Source: a virus. From it: a stretch of 64,000 nucleotides of DNA. How positions within the stretch are numbered: the first letter of the stretch is position 1; every line of letters begins with the position of its first letter. The notes under the pieces are model-generated. The model worked only from the letters and a program-made list of their open reading frames with translations. It was not told the DNA's origin and searched no databases. The stretch is taken from the IMG/VR virus record IMGVR_UViG_3300009156_000026, positions 1-64,000 of that record. One strand, given 5' to 3'. Made by a program: the position numbers and the translations under genes. This document shows, piece after piece, positions 3,311 to 56,700 of this stretch.

Positions 3311-3340
3311 GAGGGTCTCCTTCAGGGGAGGTAGAAAAGA

Positions 3341-3371
3341 GGTACCCCCGGAATACCCCCGAGTGGGTACC
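3341..3371. terminator. Intergenic inverted repeat GGTACCC...GGGTACC
   Basis: The arms lie at 3341-3347 and 3365-3371 around a 17-nt C-rich loop, between two leftward genes. It may act as a 3' end for the gene at 3393-3902 or a leader for the gene at 2624-3310. Inferred from symmetry only. Confidence 0.4.
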
Positions 3372-3392
3372 CCAGGAGTGCTCAGCTTGAAG

Positions 3393-3902
3393 CTACGCCT
3401 GGAGCCTTGACTCCTGGGCGGCGCGGTGGTCGGGGCCGAGGTCGGAGACCCGCACGATTAGCTGGCCCCGAAAGCCACACGACAGGCCGATCGGGATCGT
3501 CCACTGCATGCCGGGCCCGAGCGCGCGGGTGGTGTGCAGGGCGTGGATCAGGGGCTTGATGAGTGGCCCGAGCTCGGCGTTGATCGCGTGGACCGCCTCG
3601 GCCTCGGGCCCGTGATGGTCGATCTCCTGGAAGGCCAGCGCGTCCATCACCCGGAAGAGCTCGTCCTGGGTGATCGGCGGCGGCCCGACCGCCTCCAGAT
3701 CGTCAGCGTTGCCAACGATGTGGCGGCCGAGGTCGACCAGCGACGAGTCGTCCAGCAGGAAGAGCTCGGGCTCATCGTCCTCCTGGGTGATCGGCAGCCG
3801 CTGGAGGCTGCCGATGACGGATCCCGACGACTCGGACGCCTCGATCGTGAGGCGGTACTCCTGGTCGCGGAAGCGGTAGATGCCGTTGTCGTGGAGCTCC
3901 AC
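3393..3902 (-). CDS. Hypothetical protein, 169 aa
   Basis: The GTG start at 3902 is set by TAAGGAGAGACCC immediately upstream. The product (VELHDNGIYRFRDQEYRL...) has a beta-rich N-terminus, an acidic middle (EDDEPELFLLDD) and a C-terminal alpha/beta part. No Cys clusters or transmembrane segments. Unassigned. Confidence 0.7.
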   Translation of the reverse strand: MELHDNGIYRFRDQEYRLTIEASESSGSVIGSLQRLPITQEDDEPELFLLDDSSLVDLGRHIVGNADDLEAVGPPPITQDELFRVMDALAFQEIDHHGPEAEAVHAINAELGPLIKPLIHALHTTRALGPGMQWTIPIGLSCGFRGQLIVRVSDLGPDHRAAQESRLQA

Positions 3903-4134: not shown

Positions 4135-4191
4135 ACGGGTCTCCTCTCGGGGGTAGAATCAGCGGCGGCCGTCGGGCCGGAAGCTGGTGGG

Positions 4192-4237
4192 TTACCTTTG
4201 TACGGTGGTGGTTGTGGGTTCGAGTCCCACCCGGGTC
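4192..4237 (+). other. tRNA 3'-half remnant (anticodon UGU, Thr-like)
   Basis: An anticodon arm (TTACC 4192-4196, loop TTTGTAC, GGTGG 4204-4208), a 5-nt variable loop and a T arm (GTGGG-TTCGAGT-CCCAC, 4214-4230) with 3' acceptor strand CCGGGTC read as the 3' part of a tRNA. The D arm is degenerate and no 5' acceptor strand GACCCGG is present, so it cannot fold as a complete tRNA. It lies between leftward genes, on the opposite strand. Confidence 0.5.
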
Positions 4238-4242
4238 CGGAA

Positions 4243-4276
4243 GGGCGCGGTAGCTCAATGGCAGAGCACCTCTCCA
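4243..4276 (+). other. tRNA 5'-half remnant
   Basis: GGGCGCGG followed by TAGCTCAATGGCAGAGCA reads as a 5' acceptor strand, positions 8-9, a D arm (GCTC/GAGC) and position 26. Similarity ends within the anticodon stem. Its acceptor does not pair with the remnant just upstream, so the two pieces come from different tRNAs, as if from the junction of a host tandem tRNA cluster. Confidence 0.45.
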
Positions 4277-4283
4277 TTGGCAC

Positions 4284-4559
4284 CTACTCGTCTGACGGCC
4301 GCGCAACCTCGGGCAGCCCGAGCCCCTCCATCGAGAAGTCGATCTGCGGCTCGGTGGCCTCCACGATCGCCTGCCGCAGGCTCTTGTCGAAGATCGGGTT
4401 GACGGGGTCGGGGCCGTAGTGGCTGGCGTACGGCGTCGTCTTGATGACCTTGCCGCCGTGGTCGCTGGTCCACTTGGTGGCCTTGGCCACCCCCTCCACT
4501 CGGTCCTGGTAGATCGTGACCTCCAGGATGATCCTGGCGATCTGGCCGTTACTGCGCAT
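4284..4559 (-). CDS. Hypothetical protein, 91 aa
   Basis: Starts MRSNGQIARIILEVTIYQDRV with an AGGAGAGGACCC site. A beta-hairpin-like N-terminus is followed by a mixed region. The start overlaps the end of the upstream gene by 11 nt. Unassigned. Confidence 0.65.
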   Translation of the reverse strand: MRSNGQIARIILEVTIYQDRVEGVAKATKWTSDHGGKVIKTTPYASHYGPDPVNPIFDKSLRQAIVEATEPQIDFSMEGLGLPEVARPSDE

Positions 4560-6036: not shown

Positions 6037-6270
6037 TTACCTCCTCCCCTGGTAGGCGGCGATCAGCGCACTGGTGGCAGCAGCCGCCGAGTGGGTGATC
6101 CGCACGGCAGCCACGCGGGTGGCGCAGTCGAGTGCCTGGGCCTTGAGCTCGTGGCGGTGGTCGCAGCGCCAGACGACGCGGGAGCGGGGCGACTTCACGC
6201 GCAGGACGCCACGGAAGTAGCCAGGGCGTGGGTGGTACTGGGTGCCGGGGTACTCAGCGACAGGGCTCAT
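6037..6270 (-). CDS. Hypothetical protein, 77 aa
   Basis: The product is basic, with an N-terminal beta-rich part (YHPRPGYFRGVLRVKSP) containing CDHRHELKAQALDC, a possible Cys/His metal site. CGAGGAGACC precedes the ATG. First gene downstream of the hairpin element at 6295-6414. Confidence 0.65.
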   Translation of the reverse strand: MSPVAEYPGTQYHPRPGYFRGVLRVKSPRSRVVWRCDHRHELKAQALDCATRVAAVRITHSAAAATSALIAAYQGRR

Positions 6271-6294: not shown

Positions 6295-6414
6295 GCGGGC
6301 GGGCCCGCTCTCAGAGCACCCACGAGCAGGTAGGGCACCCTGGACCGACTGCGTCGGTCAGGGAACCCTAGCCCGTGAGTGCCTAGAGGCCGGGTCAGCC
6401 TGAGATGTCAGGCT
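6295..6414. promoter_or_regulatory. Intergenic hairpin element, copy A
   Basis: Conserved flanks GGGCCCGCTC(T/G)CAG on the left and GCCTAGAGGCCGGGTC on the right enclose a long variable hairpin (6317-6382). That hairpin is two nested stems: GCACCCACGAGC pairs with GCCCGTGAGTGC, and an inner stem closes on ACCGAC-TGC-GTCGGT. A further hairpin (AGCCTGA-GATG-TCAGGCT, 6397-6414) touches the end of the next gene. It sits between leftward transcription units, upstream of the ribosome-binding site at 6270. Copies B and C are at 12 and 14 kb. Confidence 0.65.
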
Positions 6415-7727
6415 CAGCGGTCGACCACGTTGACGCGGTCCTGGGGCACCCGAAACGGCTTGCCTTTCGGACCCTTCACGTAGGGGCGGATCGGGATCCG
6501 TCGGCCGTTGGCCAGGGTCCGCATGTGGCCCGTGACTGGCCACTGACAGGTCCAGTCGACGGCGCGGGACCCGCCGTGCTTGGCGGCGTACTCGGCTTTG
6601 CGCCACTCGACGACCCGCACGACAGGCGCGACGTCGGCCCGCTCGGCACGGCGGCGGGTGGCACGGTCGAGCTCGCCCGGCTCGACCCGCCCCTGCTTGA
6701 GGATGCGCCCCTGCATCCACCCGAACAGGGCGCCCATCAGCAGGAACGGGTAGCCGTGGTAGGCGCGATCGGTCACGTCGTCGGGGTAGCGCTGCTGGAC
6801 GTCGGCCAGCATCTCGATGACCGTCGCGCCGTACGGGACGGGCGGCTGGATGAACGGCACCAGCCGCGCACCCTCGGCCCAGTCCCAGCCGGCCGCCTCG
6901 GCATCCACGAACGAGATGACCGCAAGCTGCTGCTCGGGATGGTCGACGCGATAGCTGCCGTCCGAGAGCGGGGCACCGACCTGGGCCGGCGTGAACACGA
7001 TCGCCCGCACGTTCTCGTCGAACCGCTGGCGGCCGTTCGGCTTGCGGGGCGCGGACGGGTCGGGCGGCAGCCAGAGCAGGCCACCATCCGGCGTCGGGAT
7101 GCGCTCGGTGTCGAACGCGAACGCCTCCAGGCCGCTGATGGGCGAGCCCAGCGCCAGCGCCTGCCCCTCCGCGTCCACCGTGGTCACCATCAGGGCGCGG
7201 CGGATCTCGGGGCTGACGTAGAACGACTCCAGCCGCCGCACCATGTGCGCGGTCTGGCGGACCGTGGACTCGACGTGGACCTGGGCCGCTCGGATCCGCT
7301 CGGCCTGGGTCGGCAGGGCTGCGACGGCGGGGTTGTCCATGAAGTAGGCCAGCAACGAACGACGGGCGCCAGTGGTCGCCAGGGCGCCGAGGATCGCCAG
7401 CTTGCCGTCGAGGGCCTCGCGCCAGGGCATCGGACCCCCCACCGCCGGCCTGGGCGCGGTCGGGGCGTTGATCGGGAAGCCGTGCTCCCTGGCGCAGGCG
7501 ATGTGCAGGGTGGCCGGCTCGTCGGGGTGGTCCGTCATCAAGACCATGATGACCTCGTCGCCCTTCACGATCCGCTTGTGACAGACCGTCGATCCGCAGC
7601 GGGTCATCGCCTCCGCGAAACGGAACGGCACCGAGAGCTCGTAGGTCTCGCCGCCAGAGTAGGCGTTGACGCGGTCCAGGACGGCCTGCCACCGCTCGGG
7701 CGGCCAGTTGACAGTCTCGGCGTCCAT
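6414..7727 (-). CDS. Hypothetical protein, 437 aa, with C-terminal GHxR-KGP motif
   Basis: Starts MDAETVNWPPERW behind GGAGGAGACCC. It has a His/Cys-containing N-terminal part (CGSTVCHKRIVKGDE, HIACAREHG), which may be a zinc-bound PARP-finger-like fold, a long alpha/beta middle, and a C-terminus with W-x-VTGHMR...PIRPYVKGPKGKP. That ending resembles a W..GHWR..PYxKGP motif I recall from uncharacterised actinobacterial and phage proteins. No catalytic function is assigned. The gene ends inside the hairpin of element A. Confidence 0.65.
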   Translation of the reverse strand: MDAETVNWPPERWQAVLDRVNAYSGGETYELSVPFRFAEAMTRCGSTVCHKRIVKGDEVIMVLMTDHPDEPATLHIACAREHGFPINAPTAPRPAVGGPMPWREALDGKLAILGALATTGARRSLLAYFMDNPAVAALPTQAERIRAAQVHVESTVRQTAHMVRRLESFYVSPEIRRALMVTTVDAEGQALALGSPISGLEAFAFDTERIPTPDGGLLWLPPDPSAPRKPNGRQRFDENVRAIVFTPAQVGAPLSDGSYRVDHPEQQLAVISFVDAEAAGWDWAEGARLVPFIQPPVPYGATVIEMLADVQQRYPDDVTDRAYHGYPFLLMGALFGWMQGRILKQGRVEPGELDRATRRRAERADVAPVVRVVEWRKAEYAAKHGGSRAVDWTCQWPVTGHMRTLANGRRIPIRPYVKGPKGKPFRVPQDRVNVVDR

Positions 7728-7748
7728 GGGTCTCCTCCCTCGGGGGTG

Positions 7749-8159
7749 CTAGCTCTGGAAGTGGGCCTCAAGGTGGCCGTAGGCGAGCCCGGTCGACAGG
7801 CGGAGCTCCTCCAGTTCAGGGTCGGTCACGAACGGGCCATCGCCACGGAGGGCGGCGTAGTACGGCTCGTCGGCGGCGTTGACAGCGGCGTGCAGCTTCT
7901 GCCCCTCGTCGCAGGAGACGTGGTACGAGGTGCCCTCGACGTAGCAGCCGCACGACAGGGTCTCGGGGCCCCGCTCGGCATAGGCGACGTGGACGTCGAG
8001 CACCTCGGTCGAGGGGCGGAACTTGGGGAGCTCGGCGTGGACGAACGTCCTGAGCTCGCCTCGGCGCCTGATCTGGTCCTGGTGGACAGGCTCGGGCTCG
8101 GTCAGCCACTCCGAGCCGTCCATCTCGACGACGATCTGGAGGGTGATGCGCTGGCGCAT
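7749..8159 (-). CDS. Hypothetical protein, 136 aa
   Basis: Starts MRQRITLQIVVEMDG behind AAAGGAAGAGACCC. A beta-rich start (an alternating hydrophobic strand) precedes a region with CGC and a further Cys (YHVSCDEG). Unassigned. It lies in line with the neighbouring leftward genes. Confidence 0.65.
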   Translation of the reverse strand: MRQRITLQIVVEMDGSEWLTEPEPVHQDQIRRRGELRTFVHAELPKFRPSTEVLDVHVAYAERGPETLSCGCYVEGTSYHVSCDEGQKLHAAVNAADEPYYAALRGDGPFVTDPELEELRLSTGLAYGHLEAHFQS

Positions 8160-8171
8160 GGGTCTCTTCCT

Positions 8172-8426
8172 TTAGGGGGTGAGGGTGAGGGTGGCGAGGT
8201 GCAGCCCGCCCGGCTTCTGGCGCTTCCAGACCTCGTAGCTGCCGTCGGGGAGACGTCTCCAGGCGGTCTCCCTGGTGGTCGACGCCCCGAACTCCCGCCT
8301 GACATGGTCGGCCCACTGGCGCAGCACCCGATCGTGATGACGGGGCATCACCTGCGTCGGGTAGGTCGCCTGGGCCGGGTGACTGGATCGCGGACGGACG
8401 TGATAGACGATCGTGATCATGGCCAC
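8172..8426 (-). CDS. Small basic hypothetical protein
   Basis: Encodes up to 84 residues. Start is GTG at 8426 (4 nt after GGGAGG) or ATG at 8420 (10 nt after it). His/Arg-rich; the C-terminal WRRLPDGSYEVWKRQKPGG looks like a beta-hairpin. The 12-bp palindrome GGAGACGTCTCC lies within the gene at 8249-8260. Confidence 0.6.
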   Translation of the reverse strand: MAMITIVYHVRPRSSHPAQATYPTQVMPRHHDRVLRQWADHVRREFGASTTRETAWRRLPDGSYEVWKRQKPGGLHLATLTLTP

Positions 8427-8439
8427 GACACCTCCCGAG

Positions 8440-8469
8440 CACGGGGTACCTGCTGACAGGTACCCCGTG
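8440..8469. terminator. Perfect 13-bp hairpin with KpnI-like core
   Basis: CACGGGGTACCTG (8440-8452) pairs perfectly with CAGGTACCCCGTG (8457-8469) around a CTGA loop. It lies between the stop of the leftward gene at 8475-9872 and the start of the next, where a terminator or processing site would act. No T-run follows on either strand. Confidence 0.55.
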
Positions 8470-8474
8470 GGTGG

Positions 8475-9872
8475 CTAGACGCCGACGGGGATCCCAATCT
8501 CGGACTGCGTCCGAGTTGGGATCCCGACGGCCTGTCGAGACCCGGCGGCCTCCAGGCTGTCGTCGTCCTCATCGCCCAGGCTGACGTCGGCGGCCTGACG
8601 GACGCCGGTATCCAGCCCCTGGCTGTCGTCGTCGTCGTCGAACAGGTCCGACGGGACAGCAGCCGACTCGCGACGCAGCAGGCTCTGGAGCTCCTCGACG
8701 TCGCCGCCGAGCCCGACGTCCTGCATCACGGCAGATCCGCGCTTGCCGACCTTCTTGTCCATCTCCATCAGGCTGAGCCGCGCCTCGGCCCCGAGCGTGG
8801 TCAGCACGCCCTTGAGCTCCTCGGCCGAGCGCTTCTGTGACGGCTGGTCCAGGATGCCCTGGAGGGACGCCAGGCGCGCCTGCAAGGAGCCGTTGCCCTC
8901 GTCCCAGAAGTCGAGCAGCTTGGCCTGCTTCAGGAACTTGGAGAGGGCGGTGCTGCTGTTCCGATCCAGCTTGCCGTCGTTGTCCTGGGCGACCTTGAGG
9001 GCGGCCGAGACGGCGTCGAAGACCTGGGTCTGAAGCTGGACGCGGACCTCCTCGACGAACTGCGAGACGCCCTTGCCAGCCTTCTCCGAGGCGGTCCGCT
9101 CGACCTCGTCGAGCATGATCCGTTCGGCCTCGGTCAGGCGGATGTCGCCAGCGGCCACTCGGTCGCGCTCGACCCGTGCGAGGTCGGGCAGCGAGGTGCA
9201 GTAGAACTTGATCTTCAGCTTGGTGCGGATCGTCTGGACCGTCGGGATCTCGGCCGCGATCATGTCCAGCTTGCCCTGGACCCAGGCGTCCTTGTCCGCG
9301 AAGTTGTCGAGCCGGGCGCCCGTGCCGAGCACCTTCAGCCGATCGTGGGTGCCCTGGAGAAAGCCCAGGAACGCGGTCAGGGTCTCCTTCTTGAGGTCGT
9401 CGTACTGCTCCTCGACCTTGTCCAGGAGGAGCGCAAACTGACCCTCGACCTCGCGGTGCGCGGACAGCCACTCGGCAAACGCCGGCAGCGGGACCCAGGC
9501 GCCCCAGAAGGTGGCGTACGACCATTTCTCCAGGCGGTAGCGGGCGCGGGAGTCCAGCTTCTCGAACTCCTCGTGGATCCGCAGCGGCAGCAGGTAGCGG
9601 TGGCCAGGGGCCAGGAACTGCCGCAGCCGCTTGGCCTCCTCGGGGTCGGCCGGCTCGATCCCGAGCATCTCCAGATCAAGCTGCAGCTTGAAGCGCTCGC
9701 GGGAGATCGAGAGGTCGACGACCACGCCCTTCTCGGCGTACTTGAGCCAGCGCGCGTCACGGGCGTAGACCTCGACGCCGAGCGCCTCGGAGAGCTCACG
9801 GTTGAGCGAGTCCACGCCGTTCTTCCTGGTCGGGTCCTCGGTGCGGGTGATGGTCTGGGTCTGGTCTTCCAT
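8475..9872 (-). CDS. Coiled-coil protein of the AAA+/SWIM module, 465 aa
   Basis: Long helical protein without Cys pairs or membrane segments. Middle region is rich in heptad-like charged helices (about residues 140-400), with a strongly acidic tail (DLFDDDDDSQG, DEDDDSLEA). It lies downstream of the SWIM protein and the AAA+ ATPase, separated by about 30 nt, with a GGAGACCC ribosome-binding site, so it is probably in one operon. It may be the adaptor or substrate subunit of the ATPase. It loosely recalls the DUF3150-type proteins that accompany AAA ATPases in phages, but this was not checked. The last codons lie within a long inverted repeat (8488-8525). Confidence 0.65.
   Translation of the reverse strand: MEDQTQTITRTEDPTRKNGVDSLNRELSEALGVEVYARDARWLKYAEKGVVVDLSISRERFKLQLDLEMLGIEPADPEEAKRLRQFLAPGHRYLLPLRIHEEFEKLDSRARYRLEKWSYATFWGAWVPLPAFAEWLSAHREVEGQFALLLDKVEEQYDDLKKETLTAFLGFLQGTHDRLKVLGTGARLDNFADKDAWVQGKLDMIAAEIPTVQTIRTKLKIKFYCTSLPDLARVERDRVAAGDIRLTEAERIMLDEVERTASEKAGKGVSQFVEEVRVQLQTQVFDAVSAALKVAQDNDGKLDRNSSTALSKFLKQAKLLDFWDEGNGSLQARLASLQGILDQPSQKRSAEELKGVLTTLGAEARLSLMEMDKKVGKRGSAVMQDVGLGGDVEELQSLLRRESAAVPSDLFDDDDDSQGLDTGVRQAADVSLGDEDDDSLEAAGSRQAVGIPTRTQSEIGIPVGV
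8488..8525. repeat. Long inverted repeat at the 3' end of a gene
   Basis: GGGATCCCAATCTCGGA (8488-8504) and TCCGAGTTGGGATCCC (8510-8525) pair over 16 bp with one bulged base around a CTGCG loop. It encodes the last residues of the coiled-coil protein (VGIPTRTQSEIGIPVG, itself a peptide repeat). As RNA it would form a very stable 3' hairpin. Confidence 0.55.
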
Positions 9873-9903
9873 GGTGGGTCTCCTGGGGGTGGTGGGTGAG
9901 AGC

Positions 9904-10266
9904 CTAGCGCCGCACCTGCGGCTCGAAGAGCTCGTCGTCGTCGTCGTCGAACAAGGGGCGGGCCTCCGGCACCGTCGGGAGCGGTGCCGGAGTACCCGTG
10001 GCTGGGCTGTCCACGACAGGCTGGGTCGGCTCGGTCGGGACGCTGAACGTGTTACTGGCGAACGCGGCGCTCAGGTGCTTGCAGCGGAACCGCATCCGCT
10101 CCTCGGGTGAGCGCTCGGGGTTGCGGGTGGTCTGGAAGAAAAACGCCGGGCAACTGCACGTTGCTGAGCCGTCGTCGTAGACCACCAGTCGATACTCGGT
10201 CGGCAGGCCGGTGCTGCGCTCGACCCGATTGGCCGAACGCACCGAACCGCTCCAGATCGCCCGCAC
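9904..10266 (-). CDS. SWIM zinc-finger protein
   Basis: The GTG start at 10266 is chosen because GAGGAGGTGTAAC precedes it; it lies 1 nt from the upstream ATPase stop. The 120-residue product contains CSCPAF-x(n)-FRCKHL, the CxC...CxH signature of SWIM domains, after a short beta-rich lead (YRLVVYDDGSAT). The tail is Pro-rich and acidic (DDDDDELFEP), like the tails of its two operon neighbours. SWIM domains bind DNA or proteins and often accompany ATPases. The 3-gene arrangement argues for one complex. Confidence 0.75.
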   Translation of the reverse strand: MRAIWSGSVRSANRVERSTGLPTEYRLVVYDDGSATCSCPAFFFQTTRNPERSPEERMRFRCKHLSAAFASNTFSVPTEPTQPVVDSPATGTPAPLPTVPEARPLFDDDDDELFEPQVRR

Positions 10267-10267
10267 G

Positions 10268-12211
10268 TTACACCTCCTCGTCGTCGTACGCGTCGAAGGC
10301 ATCGGTGTCGGTGATGGCGGTCCGAGCGGCGCCGACCTGGGGACGGGCGGCGGTCTTGGCGCGGGCCTGCTGCTTGCCCACGCGGTCGCGGTACCGCTCC
10401 GGGACCAAGCTGCGGAAGTTGCAGGCGCGGACCGCGAGGTCGGTGTGGAGCTCGACGTCAGCCGTCGACCGCACCATGTCGTCGAGGCCGGCCTCGAAGG
10501 CTCTGGCTGAGACCGAGCGATCGTCGCCGTCCGTCTCGGGCATCAGCCTGAGGCGGACCCGGTAGCCGGCCTCACCGACCAGCGCTTCGAGCTCGGCCGG
10601 CGTCCAGAGGTCGGTCGCCTCCCCGATCGCGAGGAGCTCCGCGTCCGACGGCATCGGCACCCGCTTGCGCCGACAGAGCGCAGCCACGGCGGCTGCGCGC
10701 TCCGAGGCCGAGTCCGGCGGCAGCAAGGGGATCGTGTAGTCGATGCGACCCGGGCGCTTGAACGCCGCATCGATCTGGTCGGGCCTGTTGGTGGCCGCGA
10801 TCAGCAGGATCTTGCCACGGTGCTTGTCGTTCGAGAAGAACTTCAGGAGCTCCCCGAACGTGTTGCCCTCGACCGAGTCGCCACCACCACCGCCGCCGCC
10901 CACGACGCGCTTGACCTTCTGGTCGAGCTCGTCAATAAAGACGACACACGGCGCCAGCGCCTCGATCCCGGTCAGCGCCTTGCGGAGCTTCTTCTCCGAC
11001 TCCCCGACGTACTGACCCTTGATCTTGTCGGCCTGGAGCTCGACGCAGTTGAGGCCCGTTTCGTGGGCGATCGCGCGAGCCACCCAGGTCTTGCCGGTAC
11101 CGGCCGGGCCCGCGAACATCAGCCCCATCGGGCAGACGTCGTGGAGGTCGGGGTCGCGCAGGGTGTTCAGCACCCGCTCCTGGAGAAACTGCTTGGCCCG
11201 ATCGTGGCCGCCGACCATCTCGAAGGTGACGTCGGGTTCGAGGATCTCCAGGACCTCGGCGTACTCCGAGGCGATCAGGTCGGCTTTGCGCTCCTTGACC
11301 ATCTCGCGGGTCAGCCGCCCGCCGTTGGCCGCTGCCCGCATGGCGATATCTTCGATGTGCCGCCTGCCCAGGCCGGCTGTTTCGTTGGCGAGCTCCATCT
11401 CGGTCAGGCCGTCGAGCTCGGCCCGACGGTCGGGCAGGGTCCGCGCGATGAACGCCAGTCGCTGGTCGACATCGGGGACGCCGACCTCGATCGTGCGGAT
11501 GCCCGAGGTCGAGGTGCGGAGGTCCGGGTGGATGTCCTCCAGCGAGGGGGCCAGGATGATGACCAGGGCCTTGTTGCGGTTGATCTCGATCGAGCGGCCG
11601 GCGCGGTCGAGGATGGCGAGCAGGCGGCGGTCGGTCGGGCCGAGGCGGGCCTTGTCCTCGGGTGGGACAATCAAGTCGGCGCGCTCGACGATGATGGCGG
11701 CGCGGGCGCCGACGGCGCGGCGGGCCTCGCCACGGCCAACGACCCGCTGGGGGACGCCGGGCTCTTCGATGGTGGCGCCACGGGCCCACTCGATCAGCTT
11801 GTCGATGGCCGAGGGGGCGTCGTCGGGCAGCTTGCCCTGGTTGCCGGCACCGACCGCAGCACCGGCAGCGGCCAGCGCTGCGAGGGGGTTGAAGGCATCG
11901 GCCGCCGACTCGTCCTGCTGCTCGATGCCGAGCACCCGCTCGACCCAGGCTCGGGACTCCTTGGCCACGAGCTCGGTGCCCGGGAACGTGACCCCCTGAT
12001 CGGGGGCGAAGGTGGCGACCGCGTGCAGCCGCAGCAGGCGCTGTTCGAGGTACTCGCGCAGCGTCAGGTTGGTCGAGGGGTGCTCGACGTAGTCAGCGAC
12101 GGCGCCGTGCAGCACGAAGACGTTGGCGGTGCCCGCTCGGTAGGTGTTCTGGAGCTCCGTCCACCAGGACGGGGTGACGGGGGTGGACAGGACGTCGAGC
12201 TCTTCAGCCAT
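10268..12211 (-). CDS. Double-domain AAA+ ATPase (Cdc48/FtsH-like)
   Basis: 647 residues. The second AAA+ domain is canonical: Walker A GPAGTGKT (about 366-375), Walker B VVFIDELDQ (about 423), sensor-1 AATNRPDQID and the arginine-rich KRPGRID that places it in the classic AAA clade. The N-terminal part (1-310) looks like a degenerate AAA domain that keeps an ILDRAGRSIEI/ILAPSLEDIHP-like strand pattern but no Walker A, as in Ycf46-type proteins. The tail ends TDAFDAYDDEEV. First gene of the module with the SWIM and coiled-coil proteins. Probably remodels a protein complex during infection; the substrate is unknown. Confidence 0.85.
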   Translation of the reverse strand: MAEELDVLSTPVTPSWWTELQNTYRAGTANVFVLHGAVADYVEHPSTNLTLREYLEQRLLRLHAVATFAPDQGVTFPGTELVAKESRAWVERVLGIEQQDESAADAFNPLAALAAAGAAVGAGNQGKLPDDAPSAIDKLIEWARGATIEEPGVPQRVVGRGEARRAVGARAAIIVERADLIVPPEDKARLGPTDRRLLAILDRAGRSIEINRNKALVIILAPSLEDIHPDLRTSTSGIRTIEVGVPDVDQRLAFIARTLPDRRAELDGLTEMELANETAGLGRRHIEDIAMRAAANGGRLTREMVKERKADLIASEYAEVLEILEPDVTFEMVGGHDRAKQFLQERVLNTLRDPDLHDVCPMGLMFAGPAGTGKTWVARAIAHETGLNCVELQADKIKGQYVGESEKKLRKALTGIEALAPCVVFIDELDQKVKRVVGGGGGGGDSVEGNTFGELLKFFSNDKHRGKILLIAATNRPDQIDAAFKRPGRIDYTIPLLPPDSASERAAAVAALCRRKRVPMPSDAELLAIGEATDLWTPAELEALVGEAGYRVRLRLMPETDGDDRSVSARAFEAGLDDMVRSTADVELHTDLAVRACNFRSLVPERYRDRVGKQQARAKTAARPQVGAARTAITDTDAFDAYDDEEV

Positions 12212-12244
12212 CAGAGGGGTCTCCTATAGGGGTGAGTCTAGCGA

Positions 12245-12316
12245 GCAGTCGGGCCCGCTCGCAGAGCACCCGCTGGCAGGTAGCCAGTGGGTGCCTAGCG
12301 GCCGGGTCAGGCTGAG
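12245..12316. promoter_or_regulatory. Intergenic hairpin element, copy B
   Basis: Same flanks as copies A and C (GTCGGGCCCGCTCGCAG and CTAGCGGCCGGGTCAGGC). The core stem GCACCCGCTGGC (12266-12277)/GCCAGTGGGTGC (12283-12294) has 12 bp with one wobble and a 5-nt loop. It lies upstream of the ATPase gene's ribosome-binding site and downstream of the gene at 12323, so it may be a terminator plus leader for the ATPase operon. Confidence 0.65.
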
Positions 12317-12322
12317 GGGTTT

Positions 12323-12547
12323 CTAGTGGTGGCTGGCGCCCAGACGGTGGGCGACCTGATGGGACTTGTCGTCGAGGTGCTTCTCGGGCTCGGACAGCCC
12401 GACGATCGGGAGCTCGGTGCCGATGACCCGAAAGAAGCGCTTCAGGGCTGGGCCCGCTTTCTCGAAGGTGGTGCCCGAGGGGATGCCCGCCGACAGCGAG
12501 CCGTCCGGGCCCTGGATCAGGATGATCTCGATCGTCTCGGCGCTCAT
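12323..12547 (-). CDS. Small protein, possibly DUF2997-like
   Basis: The start at 12547 (MSAETIEIILIQGPDGSL) is set by AAGGAGCCACCC. The 74 residues begin with a strand-turn-strand IEIILIQGPDGSLSAGI, then KAGPALKRFF, and a His-rich end. The layout resembles the small DUF2997 proteins encoded beside Ycf46-type AAA ATPases; this is a recollection-level comparison. Confidence 0.6.
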   Translation of the reverse strand: MSAETIEIILIQGPDGSLSAGIPSGTTFEKAGPALKRFFRVIGTELPIVGLSEPEKHLDDKSHQVAHRLGASHH

Positions 12548-12557
12548 GGGTGGCTCC

Positions 12558-12968
12558 TTAGAGGGGGATGCGGATCTTGGTGACGCGGGCCGCGCCCTGG
12601 CGGGCGTCCGACTGGATGGCAAGCTGGCCGTACTGGGCCTTGATGGCGGCGACCAGCCGCTCCTGGACGAGCGGGATGGCCAGCGCCTGGGCGAGCTCGG
12701 TGGCCTTGGCCGAGAGGGCGGCGATCTGGGCGGGGGTCAGGTCCAGCCGAGATGCCTGCACCTGGATGCCGTCTGCCCAGATGCGGACGGTGGCGGTGCG
12801 GCTGGTCAGGTAGGCGGTCTCGCCGTTGCGCTGGATGACGGGGACGCCGCCCATCACCTGGGCGAGCGCCTGGGCCAGCGCCTTGAGGCCGGCCTCGGAC
12901 TTGAGGAGCTCGACGCCGTACTTGGCGTCGAGCCGAGCGGAAACCACGGCGAGCATCGAACACACCAT
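12558..12968 (-). CDS. Hypothetical protein, 136 aa
   Basis: Helical N-terminus (LLKSEAGLKALAQALAQV) followed by strands (VPVIQRNGETAYLTSRTATVRI) and a long C-terminal helix. The start could be ATG 12968 or the nearer ATG 12956 (MLAVVSARL); no strong ribosome-binding site decides. Next to a DUF2997-like gene and an AAA ATPase it might play the part of DUF1257, but sequence support is weak. Confidence 0.6.
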   Translation of the reverse strand: MVCSMLAVVSARLDAKYGVELLKSEAGLKALAQALAQVMGGVPVIQRNGETAYLTSRTATVRIWADGIQVQASRLDLTPAQIAALSAKATELAQALAIPLVQERLVAAIKAQYGQLAIQSDARQGAARVTKIRIPL

Positions 12969-12976
12969 CTAGGTAC

Positions 12977-13447
12977 CTACTTTCCTGTCTTCGCTTCCGC
13001 CGCGTCCCACCGTCGATGGCAGAAGCGGCAGAGCCAGCGGACCTCAAGCGGTCGGCTGTAGTCGTGGTGGGCGGCTTCAATAGGGCCAGGGCCGCCGCAC
13101 TCCTGGCAGGTGTCGGGCTTGACCAGCGCGCCCCGCTTGATAGCGGCGCGAACCGCGTTGCCGGCGTTCCACATCAGGCGGAAGCGAGCCTTGATCGCTG
13201 GGTCTCGCTTCCGTTCGCGCGCCTCCTCGGCCAGCCGTTCGCGGTGCCGCTCGCGGTAGCGGGCGACGTTGCGGTTCGTGGTGGCTCGCACCCGTTCGGG
13301 ATCGGCAGCCCTGGCTCGACGCAGGTGCGCGTTGTGGGCCTCGGGGTTGGCTCGCACGCGCTCGACCTGGAGCGCTGACTCACATTTCATACAGGTGCGC
13401 CGCTGGGGGCGGAATGGGCCGTCGCCCCCGCAACGCTTGCAGACCAT
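12977..13447 (-). CDS. HNH/zinc-ribbon protein
   Basis: 156 residues: an N-terminal pair of Cys motifs (CKRCGG, CMKC), a long very basic helix (RYRERHRERLAEEARERKR), then CQECGG...EAAHHDYSRPLEVRWLCRFCHRRWD. The C-terminal pattern CxxC-x(n)-HHDYxxPLxVxWLCxxCHxxW is common in phage HNH-like and recombination-endonuclease-VII-like proteins. It may cut or bind DNA. Strong CAGGAGG site. The same C-terminal motif also occurs in non-catalytic zinc proteins, so nuclease activity is not certain. Confidence 0.75.
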   Translation of the reverse strand: MVCKRCGGDGPFRPQRRTCMKCESALQVERVRANPEAHNAHLRRARAADPERVRATTNRNVARYRERHRERLAEEARERKRDPAIKARFRLMWNAGNAVRAAIKRGALVKPDTCQECGGPGPIEAAHHDYSRPLEVRWLCRFCHRRWDAAEAKTGK

Positions 13448-13467
13448 CAGTCAATCCTCCTGGTGGG

Positions 13468-13716
13468 TTAGATCAGGCTCGGCTGAGCCAGGGCGGCGTC
13501 CTCGCGGTTCTTGAGCGACTGGAGGCGGGCGGTGATGAGATGGGCGTTGGCGGCCATCTCAGACAGGCGGGCGCGCTCGGTGGCGTTGGAGGCGATCTCG
13601 CTCTCCAGCTTGCGCGCCTGACGCGCGATCCGCTCGGCCAGCCGACGGACCGTACGGGCCTCCTGGCGGCGGCCATCGCGAAAGCCGGCGATGATGGCGA
13701 TCTCGTTGGCGTTCAT
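13468..13716 (-). CDS. Small coiled-coil protein
   Basis: 82 residues, almost entirely charged helix (RRLAERIARQARKLESEI, LSEMAANAHLITARLQSL). TAGGAGAGACCC precedes the ATG. Probably an oligomerising accessory protein; the partner is unknown. Confidence 0.65.
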   Translation of the reverse strand: MNANEIAIIAGFRDGRRQEARTVRRLAERIARQARKLESEIASNATERARLSEMAANAHLITARLQSLKNREDAALAQPSLI

Positions 13717-13725
13717 GGGTCTCTC

Positions 13726-14013
13726 CTAGAGGGTGATGTCGTCGCGGTTGCACGGGCCTCGGAACCAGAGCGCGATCGGCGCGCTGGCGCTATGGCAGGT
13801 GCGGGGCTTGAGGTCGTAGGTGACGGTGTGGCGCGGGGTCAGGCTGACGACGTAGGCGCCGTGCTCGTGGCCGCGCTGGTGGATGCTGCCGTGGTTGTCG
13901 CACTTGATGCGGAGCAGGCGGTCGCGCTCGTGCTGGAGGCGGCGCAGCGCGTACTCGCGGTCGGTGCCAGAGACGAGCTCCTCGCCGTCGCGGCCAGCGT
14001 GGTAGTGGGTCAT
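13726..14013 (-). CDS. Hypothetical protein, 95 aa
   Basis: N-terminal charged helix (YALRRLQHERDRLLRIK) followed by a His/Cys-containing region (CDNHGSIHQRGHEHG, TCHS, PCNRDD) that could hold zinc. TAAGGAGAGACCC precedes the ATG. Function unknown. Confidence 0.65.
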   Translation of the reverse strand: MTHYHAGRDGEELVSGTDREYALRRLQHERDRLLRIKCDNHGSIHQRGHEHGAYVVSLTPRHTVTYDLKPRTCHSASAPIALWFRGPCNRDDITL

Positions 14014-14023
14014 GGGTCTCTCC

Positions 14024-14185
14024 TTAGCGGGGGTCGGCCATCTCGGCGCGGGGGCAGTCGTCCTCGTGGGCGTACGGGTCGGGCTCGGTCGGGTGCTCGG
14101 TGTTGATCGTGACGTGGGCGCCGCAAGCGCCGCACTCGACGTCCTGCCAGACGGAGCGGATGTAGAGCGGTCGAAGGCTGTCCAC
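14024..14185 (-). CDS. Small zinc-ribbon-like protein, 53 aa
   Basis: The GTG start at 14185 is chosen because TGAGGAGACCCCCC precedes it; an upstream in-frame extension would run into hairpin element C. CGAC and a later Cys (HEDDCPRAE) suggest a partial zinc site. Confidence 0.6.
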   Translation of the reverse strand: MDSLRPLYIRSVWQDVECGACGAHVTINTEHPTEPDPYAHEDDCPRAEMADPR

Positions 14186-14212
14186 GGGGGGTCTCCTCAG
14201 GGGTGATCTAGC

Positions 14213-14275
14213 GGTCGGGCCCGCTCTCAGGCCCACCAGCGCTGACTGGTGGGCTAGAGGCCGGGTCGGACTCAG
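14213..14275. promoter_or_regulatory. Intergenic hairpin element, copy C
   Basis: Flanks GTCGGGCCCGCTCTCAG and CTAGAGGCCGGGTC match copies A and B. The core stem is GCCCACCAG (14231-14239)/CTGGTGGGC (14246-14254), a different sequence from the other cores although the fold is kept. It lies just upstream of the GTG gene at 14185. Confidence 0.65.
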
Positions 14276-50778: not shown

Positions 50779-53700
50779 GTGGCCGCCGAAGAGTGGGAGT
50801 ACGAGTACGACTATGACCAGCCCGAAGATTCGGGTGAGGACACGTCGTACGAGTACGAAGAGCCCAGCTACGAAGAGCCCAGCTACGAAGAGCCGGTCTA
50901 CCAGGAGCCCAGCTACCAGGAGCCCAGCTACGAAGAGGGCGGCGACTGGTACGACGCCTACGCCCGTGGCTACAGCGGCGGCGGCCTTGGCTACGTCGCA
51001 CCCGAGGCCGAGCCTGAAAGCTGGTACGACGCCTACGCCCAGGCGTTCAGCCCCCGCGTCGAGCAGCGTCCGACCGACCCGTACGCCTGGAGCTACAACG
51101 AGGGGGGCCGTCCCGAGACGATCGACACCTGGGCCGACGGCCGCCCGATGGACGAGAAGGCGGCCAAGCAGGCCCGGATCTACCGGGTGGCGCTCGAAAA
51201 CGGGCTCGACGAGGAGGGCGCACGGGTCCTCGTCGCGGTCACCGAGACCGAGGCGGGACTCTTCGGCGCGCTCGGTGACGGCGGCCAGTCTCGCGGCCCA
51301 TTTCAATTCTACGAAGGCGGGCAGATGCCGGCCTTCCGTCAGTGGGTGCAGGCCAACGGCATTCCCGGCGACCCCAACCAGCTTGTCCACGACCCCGAGA
51401 TCGCGACCTCGTTCGCGGCCTCGAACTACCTGGGCGCCGCGATCAAGCGTGGGCAGGCGCAGGGGCTGCACGGCGCCGATCTCGCGACCTACGCCCAGCG
51501 GACGGGACAGGTCTCGGTCTCTCCCGAGCGGACGGGCGAGAACTACCAGCGCCTGTTCGCCACGGGCGACCCGTACGGCGACGCCATCCGGGTGGCCCAG
51601 CCGTCAGCGGGGGCCCGGGCCCGTGCGAACGCCCAGATCCCGCCCGGGCACTGGGACGGCGACGGCCACGATCACGGCGTCGCGACCCCGTACACCCAGC
51701 AACAGGTCGGCCGTGACGGCTCGGTCTGGCAGATCGCGTTCGACTTCGACCAGCCGTACGCGGACCCGTTCAACCCCCAGATCCCGAACCATCGCGGCGT
51801 CGACCTCCAGCTAGCCGGGGCGCCCAACGGCGGCGAGAACACCCCGTACACGGCGATGCGCAATGGACGGGTGGTCAAGATCACCAACGACCCCCACGGC
51901 GGGATCGGGATCATCGTCGACACCGGCGACCCCTCGGCCAGATATGACAGATATTTTCACAACAACGCCGTCAGCGTGCGCGAGGGCGACGTCGTCCAGG
52001 CCGGGCGGACCAACCTTGGGGTGATCGGTCAGACCGGGAGTCAAGGCTTCCCGCACCTGCATTACGAGGTCAGCCAGAACGTTGACGGCGACCCGATGGG
52101 GCAGACGATCGACCCCCGTCCGTACCTCGGGCCACCGCCCGGGCGGCCCCAGGCCGCTGTCCGTGCCCAGCCCGGGGCGCCGTGGGACCCGTACGCCCCG
52201 TACGGTGGCGCGCAGCAGCAGCAGCCGCGCGCAGCAGCCGCCGTGGCGGCGCAGCCGAACGTCGTTGAGCTCACGACGCCGTACACCTCGGGCCGCCGCC
52301 AGACCACCGACGGGATCGTGATCCACGCGACCCGTGGCCAGGGCGAGACCCCCCAGGCCGAGTACGAGTGGACGCTGGGCTGGTTCGGGAAGAACCCGTA
52401 TCAGGTGAGTGCGAACGCCGTCATCGGCCCTGACGGCCAGATCGCGATGCCCCGCGACTGGGATCTGATCACCCACCACGCGGGCGAAAATAATGCGACC
52501 AAGTTCGGGATCGAGTTGGCCCAGTCGGCCGCCGACTCGGCTCGCGGGGTGCCGTACACCGACGCCCAGTACGCCTCGCTCGGCTGGCTGCTCGGGCAGT
52601 TGCACCAGCGCTACGGCATCCCGATCGACAGAAGCCATGTGGTCGGGCACGAGGAGCTCGACCAGGGTCGTCGACAGAACAAGACCGACCCCGGCGAGAA
52701 CTTCGACTGGGGGCGGGCCCTCCAGCTTGGCGCCCAGCCCCAGCGAGGGGTCCCGGCCCAGCAGGCCACCCAGACGGCCAGGGTCGCTCCAGCGGCGCCG
52801 TACCAGGACGTCGGCGGCACGGCCCCCGGCCGCCCGCCAGCGGGTACCCCGACACCAGCCACGGGCGGCAGCTACACGGTCGGCGGCCGTCCCGCGACCA
52901 GGGAGCAGTACGACGCGGCCGTCGCCAGCGATCGGGAGAGCCGCGACAGGTTCCTGGCCCAGCTTCCAGAGCCCACCCGGAACGCCTACACCGAGTGGGA
53001 GGCGTTCAGGCGTTCACGGGGCGAGGACCCCAACGACATCCCGGCCTTCCGCGCGCACATCGATCGGCTCGGCGTCGAGAACCCCTGGACGGGCCAGGAG
53101 CAGCGTAGAGAGCAGGCAAGAGTCGCAAGAGAGCAGTTCGAGGCGTCGCTGCCCGAGACGACCAGGACCCAGTTCCGCGAGTGGGCAGCCGACCGTGAGG
53201 CCCGTGGTCAGGACCTTACCCTGCCGGCCTTCCGCGAGCACCTGGGTGCGCTCGGCGCGCCGGATCCCTGGACGGCCCAGGAGCAGGCCGCCCGTGCTGC
53301 GGCTGCCCGCCCGGCGGCGGCCACACCACCGCCGCCGGCCGGACGGACGGTCTACAGGTTAGCCGGCGGGACCGAGATCTCCGAGGCTCAGGCGCAGGAG
53401 ATCGGGCGTCAGAATGCCGCCGCCGAGCGGATCAACGCCGGCTACAACGAGCGGATCGCGGCTGCCCGCGTCGAGCGGGAGCGGCTACGGACGTGGCAGG
53501 CCCAAAGCGACGCCTACTTCAACGATCCGAACGGCCAGCTTCCCCACCCGGGCCCGAGGCCGAGCACCGAGAACCTCGACTGGCTGGAGGCCGATGCGGC
53601 CAGGGGGGCCGACACGGGTGCCCGCGAGCAGCCGATCACGGTCGTCTCCAGCTACAACGAGCCGGCCTCGGCCGACGAGGTGGCAGCCGCCCGCGCCCGC

Positions 53701-56700
53701 GCCGAGGCCCGCGTCCAGACGGGCGCCCTGACCCGTGAGGCCGCAGCATCGTCGGACCCGCTCGTCCAGGCGGCCCAGGCGGCCCAGGCGCGATCCACCC
53801 AGCTTCTCCAGCAGGTCGAGAACCAGCGGATCCTCGATCGCGAGAGCCCGCTCGACCCCCGCTACATCGCGCTGGTCCGTAGCCAGGAGCTTCAGCGTCA
53901 GGGCGCGATGCAGGAGGGCCCGCTGCCCCAGCTTACCGACCAGGAGATCGCCATGCCCACGATCCGCCCGGCCCAGCCGGAGCGGTTCAATCAGGCGATC
54001 TACGACTACTACCGCAATCGCGGCTACTCCGAGGAGCAGGCCCGCGCCGAGGCGACCCTGGCGCCGGCCAGAGAAGCCACGATGGAGCCGCCGTCCCCGA
54101 GGGTGATCCAGGCCGATCCCGTCCCCGAGGTCGACCCGAACATCTCGACCTACGAGGCGCTGGCGAACGCTGCGATCCGTGGCACCGCCGGACTGGCGAC
54201 CGGGCTCTACAACATCCCCGAGGCGGTCGGCTACTACACGGGTCAGACGTGGCTGGAGGAGGAGTCTAGAGAACGGATCCGTGGCATCCAGGGCGCCGTC
54301 CGTGAGTCGGGGGCGCTGCGTCAGTCGGGCAACCAGTGGTACCAGAGCCCGCTCGGCTTCTTCGAGGGCGCCGCCGAGAACCTGCCCAACGTCGCCGCCA
54401 CCGTCGGCGCGGCGTTCCTGACGGGTGGCGGATCGATCGCCGCGATGGCGGCTGGCGGCGGGGCCCGGGTGGTCGCCCCGCTGCTCGTCCGTGGCGGGAT
54501 GGCGGCCTCTCGGGCGGCGCTGGTGGCGGGGTCGCTGGCATCTGGCGGCCAGATGCGCGAGTCGCTCCGTGACGAGGTCGCGGCCGGCCTGATCAACCAG
54601 GAGACGGCCGACTTCGCGGGTGCTGTCGCAGCGGCCACCGAGGCGCTGACCGAGACGGTCATGCCGGGCCTGGACAGGATGGTCCTGCGCGGCTTCGGCC
54701 TCCAGGCCGCCAAGGAGATCGGTCACGAGCTCATCAAGCGCGGCCTGGGCGGCGCGCTCAAGACGGTCGGCGGCGAGATCGTCAACGAGGCCGGCGAGGA
54801 GCTCGTGACCGAGGCGGTCGGGATCGGGACCGACCTCGCCTTCTCGGCCCAGAAGCCGACCATGCTGGAGGCCGCCGAGCGGCTGGCCACGGCTGGTGTG
54901 ATGGGCGGGGCCCTGGGTGGCGCGATGGCCGGCCCGATCACCGCTTCCGGTGCCGTCGTCCAGGCGCTCGAAGGCCGCAGAGAGACCGCCAACGCTCGCC
55001 AGCTTGACGCGGCCTTCGGCAGCCCGGCCGACCAGCTTGCCCGCGACGGGGTCCAGGTGGTGGTCGCCTCACCCGACTTCGGGACCTACGCCGTCCGCCA
55101 CATCGACCCGACCAACCCGAACCGCCAGCGCGCGTTCACCCTGAACATCTCCGAGGATGCCGAGGGCAACGCGGTCGTCACCCCGGGCGGCGCCTATCGC
55201 GGCGAGCCGCTGCGGACCATCGACCTCCAGGACCCGACCGCCGATCGGATGCGGGCCGCCCGCAACGCCGGCGCAGCGTTGACCTACCTGAACCAGCAGG
55301 GGGTGATCTCCAACGAGACGGCCTCGGGTGCGATCGAGTCGCTCCAGAAGCGGGCCGAGGCCGCAGCCAGCGGTGCGGCGGTCGCGACCCAGGCCCGTCC
55401 GTCCCGCGAGGCATCCCTGGAGGAGGGGCCCGAGCGCAGCGAGGGGTATATCAAGCCCGACGGCTGGTCCGACGTCGGCACGATCCCCGGCACCGACCTG
55501 CACCTGCGAGCCGCCGACCACCTGCCGCAGCCGCTGGTCTCCCAGATCATGCGGGCCGAGGCCGATCGCGTGATCGCGGCCTCGGTCTCGGAGCTCACCG
55601 ACCGCATGGACAAGCGGTCACAGGACCTGGGCATCACGCCGAGGACGATCGTGCGCCGCCTGATGGGCACCTCGCTCTACGGCGCCGGGATGATCGCCCA
55701 GAACGACAACATCTTCGTCGAGGGGACCCGAAACCGCGAGACCGGCATCGGCACGCTGGGCGGCTTCCAGTTCGATACGGGAGCCATCATCTTCGACGCG
55801 ATCAACGACGCCAAGGAGGCTGGCTACAGCCTCGCCCAGTTCCTCGATCCGAGGGTCGGCGGGCGGTTCCTGGCGGCCAAGATCGCGGAGGTCGCGGTCC
55901 ACGAGCCGAGCCACGACGTCAACGCCTACCATGGCGAGCGGTTCCACCAGACGATGACGGCCTACCGTCAGGCGCTGGTTGCGGAGCAGCGGGCGCTTGA
56001 GCCGATCATGCGCGAGCTTGTCTCGTCGGGCGCCGTCGAGCGGTCGCTGGCCCTGCACGCCCAGATGTACCGCGATCATGCCCGCCACTGGTACTGGCGA
56101 GGAAGGGGCCGAGATGTCGCAGCCGAGCTCGCAGCCCGAGATGCCCGACGCGGGACTCCCCTCGGGGGAGCTATTGATGTTCGTCGGCCTGATAGTCAAG
56201 GCGGCCGAGGAGCAAGACCAGCGGCTGCTCGACCTGTACCTGCGGATGGCCGAGGAGTCGGGGCTATCACGCTCCGAGGTCCTGGCCTACGCCCTGCGGC
56301 GCAGGCCGGGGAACCCGCTACTGGCGTCCCTGAGCTAGGCCCGCCCTCGCCGCTGGTCTCGCGTGAGGCCGCCATGGCCAGTGGCGTCCCGGTCGAGATG
56401 CCGTCCGACCCACGGGTCCAACAGGCGCTCGCCCGCACGCCCGGTATCCAGGTCACCCCAGATGGACTGGTGGTTGATGCGACGCGGTTCCAGCGACGGG
56501 GCAGCGGCGGCGCGCCGTCGCTCTCGGGCAACGTCTACTACGGCGTCTCGGGGCCAGAGACGACCATCGGCGGCGACAACAGCTACTACGACCAGCGCGA
56601 TCGGCTGGTCTACGGTGGGTCCGAGGCCGTCAGGGGTCCGACCGTCCTGCGCCGTCCGTTCGTCGGCACCTCGGGGGCGTTCCACCCGGAGGGGGCGCAG

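Follow-up and report, generated by a model that had tools for sequence, protein, structure and literature searches.

Three gaps between leftward genes of the phage record IMGVR_UViG_3300009156_000026 (108,690 bp) hold copies of one hairpin with conserved arms around a variable core, and the question raised by this locus is whether the element acts as DNA or as RNA, and upon what. The window analysed here is the stretch of 64,000 nucleotides at positions 1-64,000 of that record. The results described below point to an apparently undescribed family of folded mRNA elements in phages, which probably control the gene following each copy.

The three copies, termed w1, w2 and w3, were found where a first-pass annotation of the window had placed them, each in a gap between leftward genes and with both arms exact. 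With zero mismatches, the GGGCCCGCTCNCAG arm occurs in the window only at 6301, 12251 and 14217, and the CTAGNGGCCGGGTC arm only at 6383, 12295 and 14254. When the whole 108,690-bp record was scanned for both arms together, w1, w2 and w3 each scored 26/26, the next independent place scored 21, and no fourth copy was found. All three folded better than dinucleotide-shuffled sequences (z of -3.8 to -5.8), with zero shuffles equalling any copy. On the minus strand, w1 lies at 6302-6396 (54.1 bits with a covariance model of the element), w2 at 12252-12308 (62.7 bits), directly upstream of an AAA ATPase gene, and w3 at 14218-14267 (68.1 bits). The outer stem and internal loops of w1 are as in the other copies, and an extra stem enlarges its distal hairpin. 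The exact element is slightly shorter than the intervals originally annotated, with the addition of a short stretch lying further downstream, near 6295-6299 (w1), 12240-12246 (w2) and 14210-14214 (w3). The 5' arm is half-matched at 1739-1790 and at 14947-14962, and neither place was counted as a copy. The first of these (minus strand) is an intergenic hairpin following CAGCCTGACCCAGCC, nearly the context of w2, without the element's 3' arm, and is possibly a relic. The leader of the first leftward gene (14855-14970, minus strand) contains a very stable pair of hairpins (z of -9.1), preceded by a GACCCAGCCCCTA stretch resembling the element's 5' arm.

Relatives carrying the element were sought in IMG/VR with a pattern that required both arms and left the core free, which recovered only two other contigs, IMGVR_UViG_3300036852_000300 (86 kb; hereafter G002) and IMGVR_UViG_3300037297_000082 (42 kb; G003). 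A second, degenerate pattern identified IMGVR_UViG_3300049070_000112 (G004, also L152). With covariance model R1, eleven confident copies were found in G002, all within its last 9 kb and all in the same orientation, together with an additional weak match at 76137 (24 bits). G003 contained one good and one degenerate copy, and G004 a single copy (43.5 bits, E = 1.2e-7). The confident copies therefore total 16 (3 + 11 + 1 + 1), plus one degenerate copy, and those in the three other contigs had E-values of 7.8e-13 to 1.2e-7, which rest on a short calibration. Model R1 was built on 13 of the copies later recovered, so that b10, b11 and d1 are the independent finds. The contigs have little gene content in common: the AAA ATPases of G002 and the window phage are 39% identical and one neighbouring protein 26%, none of the window phage's proteins had a detectable homologue in G003 at E 1e-5, and a marginal terminase-like match was all that G004 showed. 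No copy was seen in a 57-kb relative with 70% terminase identity (G001), which is without the left arm.

Searches elsewhere were consistent with the initial description of the element as phage-specific. No near-identical phages were found among 50,697 phage records; the named phages were searched with BLAST, which is insensitive to two 14-base arms flanking a free core. The only BLAST match of the short consensus, 20 nt in Streptomyces phage Hank144, lay in a coding region and was attributed to chance. A pattern scan of bacterial genomes returned 79 stretches, none with the element's stem, and model searches of 397 genomes from the phylum of Streptomyces nigrescens and 301 from the phylum of a Chloroflexi bin, run with strict filters at reduced sensitivity, returned nothing. 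Weak model matches (12-22 bits) at L022 5227 and in L150, L122, L140 and L153, and long-gap pattern matches in L154 and L155, were judged to be chance.

The 16 copies share the consensus 5'-GACCCG[GC]CNC[UA]-(8-10 bp variable stem and loop)-[CU]GN'G[AG]CGGGCC-3'. A 2x2 internal loop (G.G, C.A) separates a 4-bp outer helix from a 3-bp helix, beyond which another 2x2 loop (U.U, A.C) leads into a distal stem that is usually 8-10 bp, of fairly uniform length and free in sequence. Within the window alone, the covariation put forward in the first-pass annotation was confined to one outer-stem pair and the inner stems; it became strong once relatives were included, the model search in related phages having supplied further copies with compensatory changes. 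Thirteen copies read on the plus strand already showed changes on both sides in 12 of 19 pairs, with a covariation score of 0.493; shuffles gave 0.122, and slid partners did not exceed 0.066. For all 16 copies, read in the mRNA sense, two-sided changes were seen at 13 of 16 pairs (63 cells), 96.9% of cells were paired, and the score of 0.673 compared with 0.195 +/- 0.024 for shuffled alignments (0/500 reaching it) and at most 0.116 for slid partners. Pair 10-86 occurs in all four Watson-Crick forms (6/5/3/2), and joint changes in the outer part were seen once at 3-93, three times at 6-90 and twice each at 9-87 and 11-85. The unpaired positions A2.C, G7.G, U12.U and A13.C, by comparison, are constant in 16/16 copies, and C8.A in 15/16. 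Since paired positions vary jointly and unpaired ones stay constant, a folded single strand read at its internal loops is indicated, not a double-stranded DNA site. The compensatory changes expected of a cis-regulatory structured mRNA element are thus present, and the freedom of the paired bases next to near-invariant unpaired ones suggests that both loops are read by a putative trans-acting factor, either a protein or a ligand.

The strand of the RNA was judged from wobble pairs. At variable pairs, G.U occurs 11 times on the mRNA strand and 5 times on the opposite strand (11 versus 2 within the first 20 pairs), the clearest cases being pair 5-91, which is U.G in b7, b10, b11 and d1, and pair 14-82, which is G.U in six copies. 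As these cases are not all independent events, they support a strand without proving it. Three invariant mismatches would be G.U on the opposite strand and alone would point that way; because they never vary, they do not discriminate. The plus strand had been considered as the RNA, the outer stem folding better on it in two of the three window copies, and was dropped after G.U and A.C were counted at variable pairs. The direction of the flanking genes fits the mRNA strand for all copies, and the mRNA (coding) strand is accordingly favoured as the sense RNA.

All copies lie between co-oriented genes and keep one orientation relative to them, just upstream of coding sequences, as expected of a cis-regulatory mRNA element. 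A typical copy begins near the upstream stop codon and ends 22-40 nt ahead of the next start codon, a location just upstream of ribosome-binding sites that suits the earlier suggestion of a leader. The gene upstream of w1 (6414-7727, minus strand, 437 amino acids) has its stop codon 17 nt before the element, and the 77-amino-acid gene downstream (6037-6270, minus strand, no assigned function) starts 31 nt past it, with the ribosome-binding site GAGGAGACC in between. Upstream of w2, a 74-amino-acid gene (12323-12547, minus strand) ends 14 nt before the element, and the 647-amino-acid AAA ATPase gene (10268-12211, minus strand) starts 40 nt past it. The stop codon of the 190-amino-acid gene upstream of w3 (14272-14844, minus strand) lies 4 nt before the element, and a 53-amino-acid small protein (14024-14185, minus strand, coordinates inferred from the reading frame) has a GTG start 32 nt past it. 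The equivalent of w2 in G002 is b4 (82394-82444), upstream of the homologous AAA gene; the two small genes preceding the element have products similar by eye in the two phages, the 81-amino-acid product of G002 resembling the 74-amino-acid product upstream of w2. The order 136-aa-like gene, 74/81-aa-like gene, element and AAA gene is kept in both phages, the wider order differing. In b7, b9, b10 and d1 the upstream gene's stop codon and the first bases of the element overlap, which would place a terminating ribosome on the 5' arm. The AAA ATPase gene is itself overlapped by a gene for a SWIM zinc-finger protein (9904-10302, minus strand), followed by that for a 465-amino-acid protein of no assigned function (region 8475-12211), and the AAA and 465-amino-acid families occur together in G002 also.

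In most copies, CCCGC(U) or a similar sequence follows shortly past the 3' arm; it is complementary to the AGCGGG of that arm and able to form an alternative hairpin. The segments of the window copies, all on the minus strand, are CCCGC downstream of w1 (6295-6299), GCTCGCT downstream of w2 (12240-12246) and CCGCT downstream of w3 (14210-14214), whereas at ten G002 ribosome-binding sites without the element a CCCGC-type segment was weak or absent. The longest pairings summed over the 16 copies gave 73 Watson-Crick pairs, whereas 1000 draws of random genomic segments averaged 56 and reached 69 at most, and an energy-based shuffle test of the alternative pairing gave 2/500. When the 5' outer arm was barred from pairing, the 3' arm was predicted to pair downstream in 16/16 copies (through just two pairs in b3), and the two predicted states lie within 3 kcal/mol of each other in 14/16. 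The competing hairpin is therefore likely to be real, a conclusion partly supported by these predictions and not proven.

The reading we favour, at even chances, is that a putative loop-reading factor controls the downstream cistron post-transcriptionally, the element being a cis-acting structured RNA within polycistronic phage mRNA. Binding of the factor, or the lack of a ribosome at the upstream stop codon, would hold the outer helix closed and leave the region ahead of the Shine-Dalgarno sequence open. Otherwise, the AGCGGG of the 3' arm may pair with CCCGC(U), and the resulting hairpin next to the ribosome-binding site would alter translation or stability of the next cistron; we infer both the factor and the direction of control. 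The layout suits a switch placed where two cistrons meet, and the retention of the element before the AAA gene, in phages whose AAA proteins are 39% identical, supports it. Several observations, however, weigh against this reading. The alternative hairpin is significant only when copies are pooled, most single copies not being so, and in b3, b9, b10 and b11, where the 3' arm has changed, the downstream segment has not changed in step, although it mostly still pairs, often via G.U. Neither state pairs the Shine-Dalgarno sequence consistently, and the model therefore does not spell out the regulatory step. Start codons lie about 55-85 nt from the element in b1-b4, and the next start after d1 is ambiguous (22 or 79 nt). 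Finally, the downstream genes have no common theme that would name a ligand, and 11 of the 16 copies come from a single contig.

Ranked second, and considered rather unlikely, is an mRNA processing site, at which an endonuclease specific for double strands, such as host RNase III, would cut in the internal loops and split the polycistronic message. The leftover AGCGGG would then pair with CCCGC(U) as a protective 5' hairpin before the Shine-Dalgarno sequence, as at the hairpins of T7 early mRNA. Those RNase III hairpins are intercistronic, about 50-60 nt long and provided with internal loops, several to an operon. The element resembles them in its intercistronic placement, with many hairpins per operon, and adds invariant loops and a near-isoenergetic downstream hairpin; the latter would arise naturally after cleavage. 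A distal stem that keeps much the same length while its sequence is free also suits such an enzyme, as do the roughly 22 stacked positions of most copies, amounting to about two helical turns as looked for in a substrate, with the second loop near the middle. RNase III, however, does not normally require invariant loop bases, and no recognisable RNase III domain was found in the phage contigs, so the enzyme would have to be that of the host.

An antitermination or processivity site in the nascent RNA, put-like or nut-like, which would modify RNA polymerase on the long leftward operon, is improbable. A structured RNA with invariant internal loops, present several times in one direction along such an operon, is what this explanation has in its favour. 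The put sites of phage HK022 are likewise structured nascent RNA of early operons, but they are few, lie near promoters and consist of two adjacent hairpins, whereas the copies described here are single hairpins before individual start codons, up to 11 of them in about 9 kb, and go with those starts, not with promoters. The antiterminator site proposed in the first-pass annotation fits this arrangement badly, and terminators downstream of the copies were not identified.

Slightly less probable still is a DNA-level element, in which a folded single strand or cruciform would serve gene-cassette recombination in the manner of integron attC. The attC sites are imperfect palindromes near stop codons, with fixed outer boxes, conserved mismatches and a variable terminal stem, and the element has fixed outer boxes with mismatches, a variable terminal stem and first bases that often overlap the preceding stop codon. 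Against this, the PF00589 tyrosine recombinase was absent from all five phage contigs searched, which may be fragments (control genomes were positive), although a host enzyme might serve; gene order around the AAA gene is kept in two phages, G.U pairs are biased towards the mRNA strand, and the element is closely tied to the downstream ribosome-binding site. A transcription terminator, alone or with a new promoter, at each cluster boundary is very improbable: the copies are G+C-rich hairpins after stop codons, but no U-run follows any copy on the sense strand, nor the window copies on the other strand, the conserved mismatches would be useless in a terminator, and in most copies the 10-20 nt or so to the next Shine-Dalgarno sequence leave no room for a promoter. 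Termination with re-initiation is thus unlikely, transcripts probably read through, and the terminator originally suggested did not find support.

Among other features of the window, one open reading frame occupies 50779-64000 and continues to 69756 of the record (plus strand). Its 6325 codons make the product unusually large among phage proteins, and M23 peptidase and amidase domains lie close to the N-terminus. An N4-like hairpin promoter was rejected as an identity for the element, the variable distal stem speaking against it and the scanned part of this giant reading frame comprising amidase and M23 domains, not a polymerase. A possible phage-encoded Y RNA lies at 4168-4298 (plus strand), with a sub-threshold but clear match to the Rfam YrlA family (36.7 bits, gathering threshold 69, E = 1.2e-6) and also a match to a nematode small RNA family. 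It presents a T-arm and then a D-arm, together with a GCCGUC/GACGGC closing stem; ARAGORN found no tRNA there, and no Ro/TROVE protein was found in the source record or its relatives. At 3320-3400 (minus strand), an intergenic inverted repeat before a leftward start codon is weakly above chance (z of -1.7).

With respect to known systems, no Rfam 15 family matched anywhere in the window at its gathering threshold, permissive searches of the element regions gave nothing or one unrelated sub-threshold match, and nothing matching was found in open-access papers on phage RNA elements of similar kind. The element is placed as a new family, of unusual build, within the known category of cis-acting structured mRNA elements. 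The nearest description is that of the extended start-associated sequences (ESAS) found with start-associated sequences (SAS) in Cluster K mycobacteriophages (Pope et al. 2011, PMC3203893). In both, inverted repeats around a variable spacer occur in several copies shortly upstream of ribosome-binding sites, the ESAS at a subset of non-structural phage genes. Departures in the ESAS arms, however, generally do not support RNA pairing, and DNA-binding sites were favoured by those authors (PMC3203893); later work located SigA-like promoters within ESAS (PMC11373665). The arms of the element, in contrast, covary strongly, its inner stem varies yet pairs, and its sequence differs. The 13-bp Cluster K SAS, 5'-GGGATAGGAGCCC, is not present at the ribosome-binding sites here, which read CTGAGAGGAG or AGGAGACC. 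Among Microbacterium phages, Cluster EG has short inverted repeats before start codons and Cluster EF has SAS and ESAS (PMC7302621). The EG motifs are, like the element, conserved and located in short intergenic gaps, 14-22 bp before start codons, but each is the fixed palindrome GATCAACCNNGGTTGATC of 18 bp and lacks a variable core, and the EF ESAS, again unlike the element, are poorly conserved around GTAGAG (PMC7302621).

Presence of the element in phages with little common gene content points to a common recognition factor. Because the four contigs have so little in common, the factor could equally well come from the host or from the phage, an argument weakened by the contigs being fragments. 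It is tentatively conceivable that the element represents a new class of RNA switch common to phages with unrelated genes. One trans-acting factor, perhaps a host one, would then read the two invariant 2x2 loops, pick between near-isoenergetic folds where two cistrons join and so set the expression of up to a dozen phage genes at once. Start-associated repeats have long been known in actinobacteriophages without a mechanism, and the comparable element described here covaries unambiguously. For such start-associated motifs, the covariation of the arms shifts the question from a DNA-binding site to an RNA structure.

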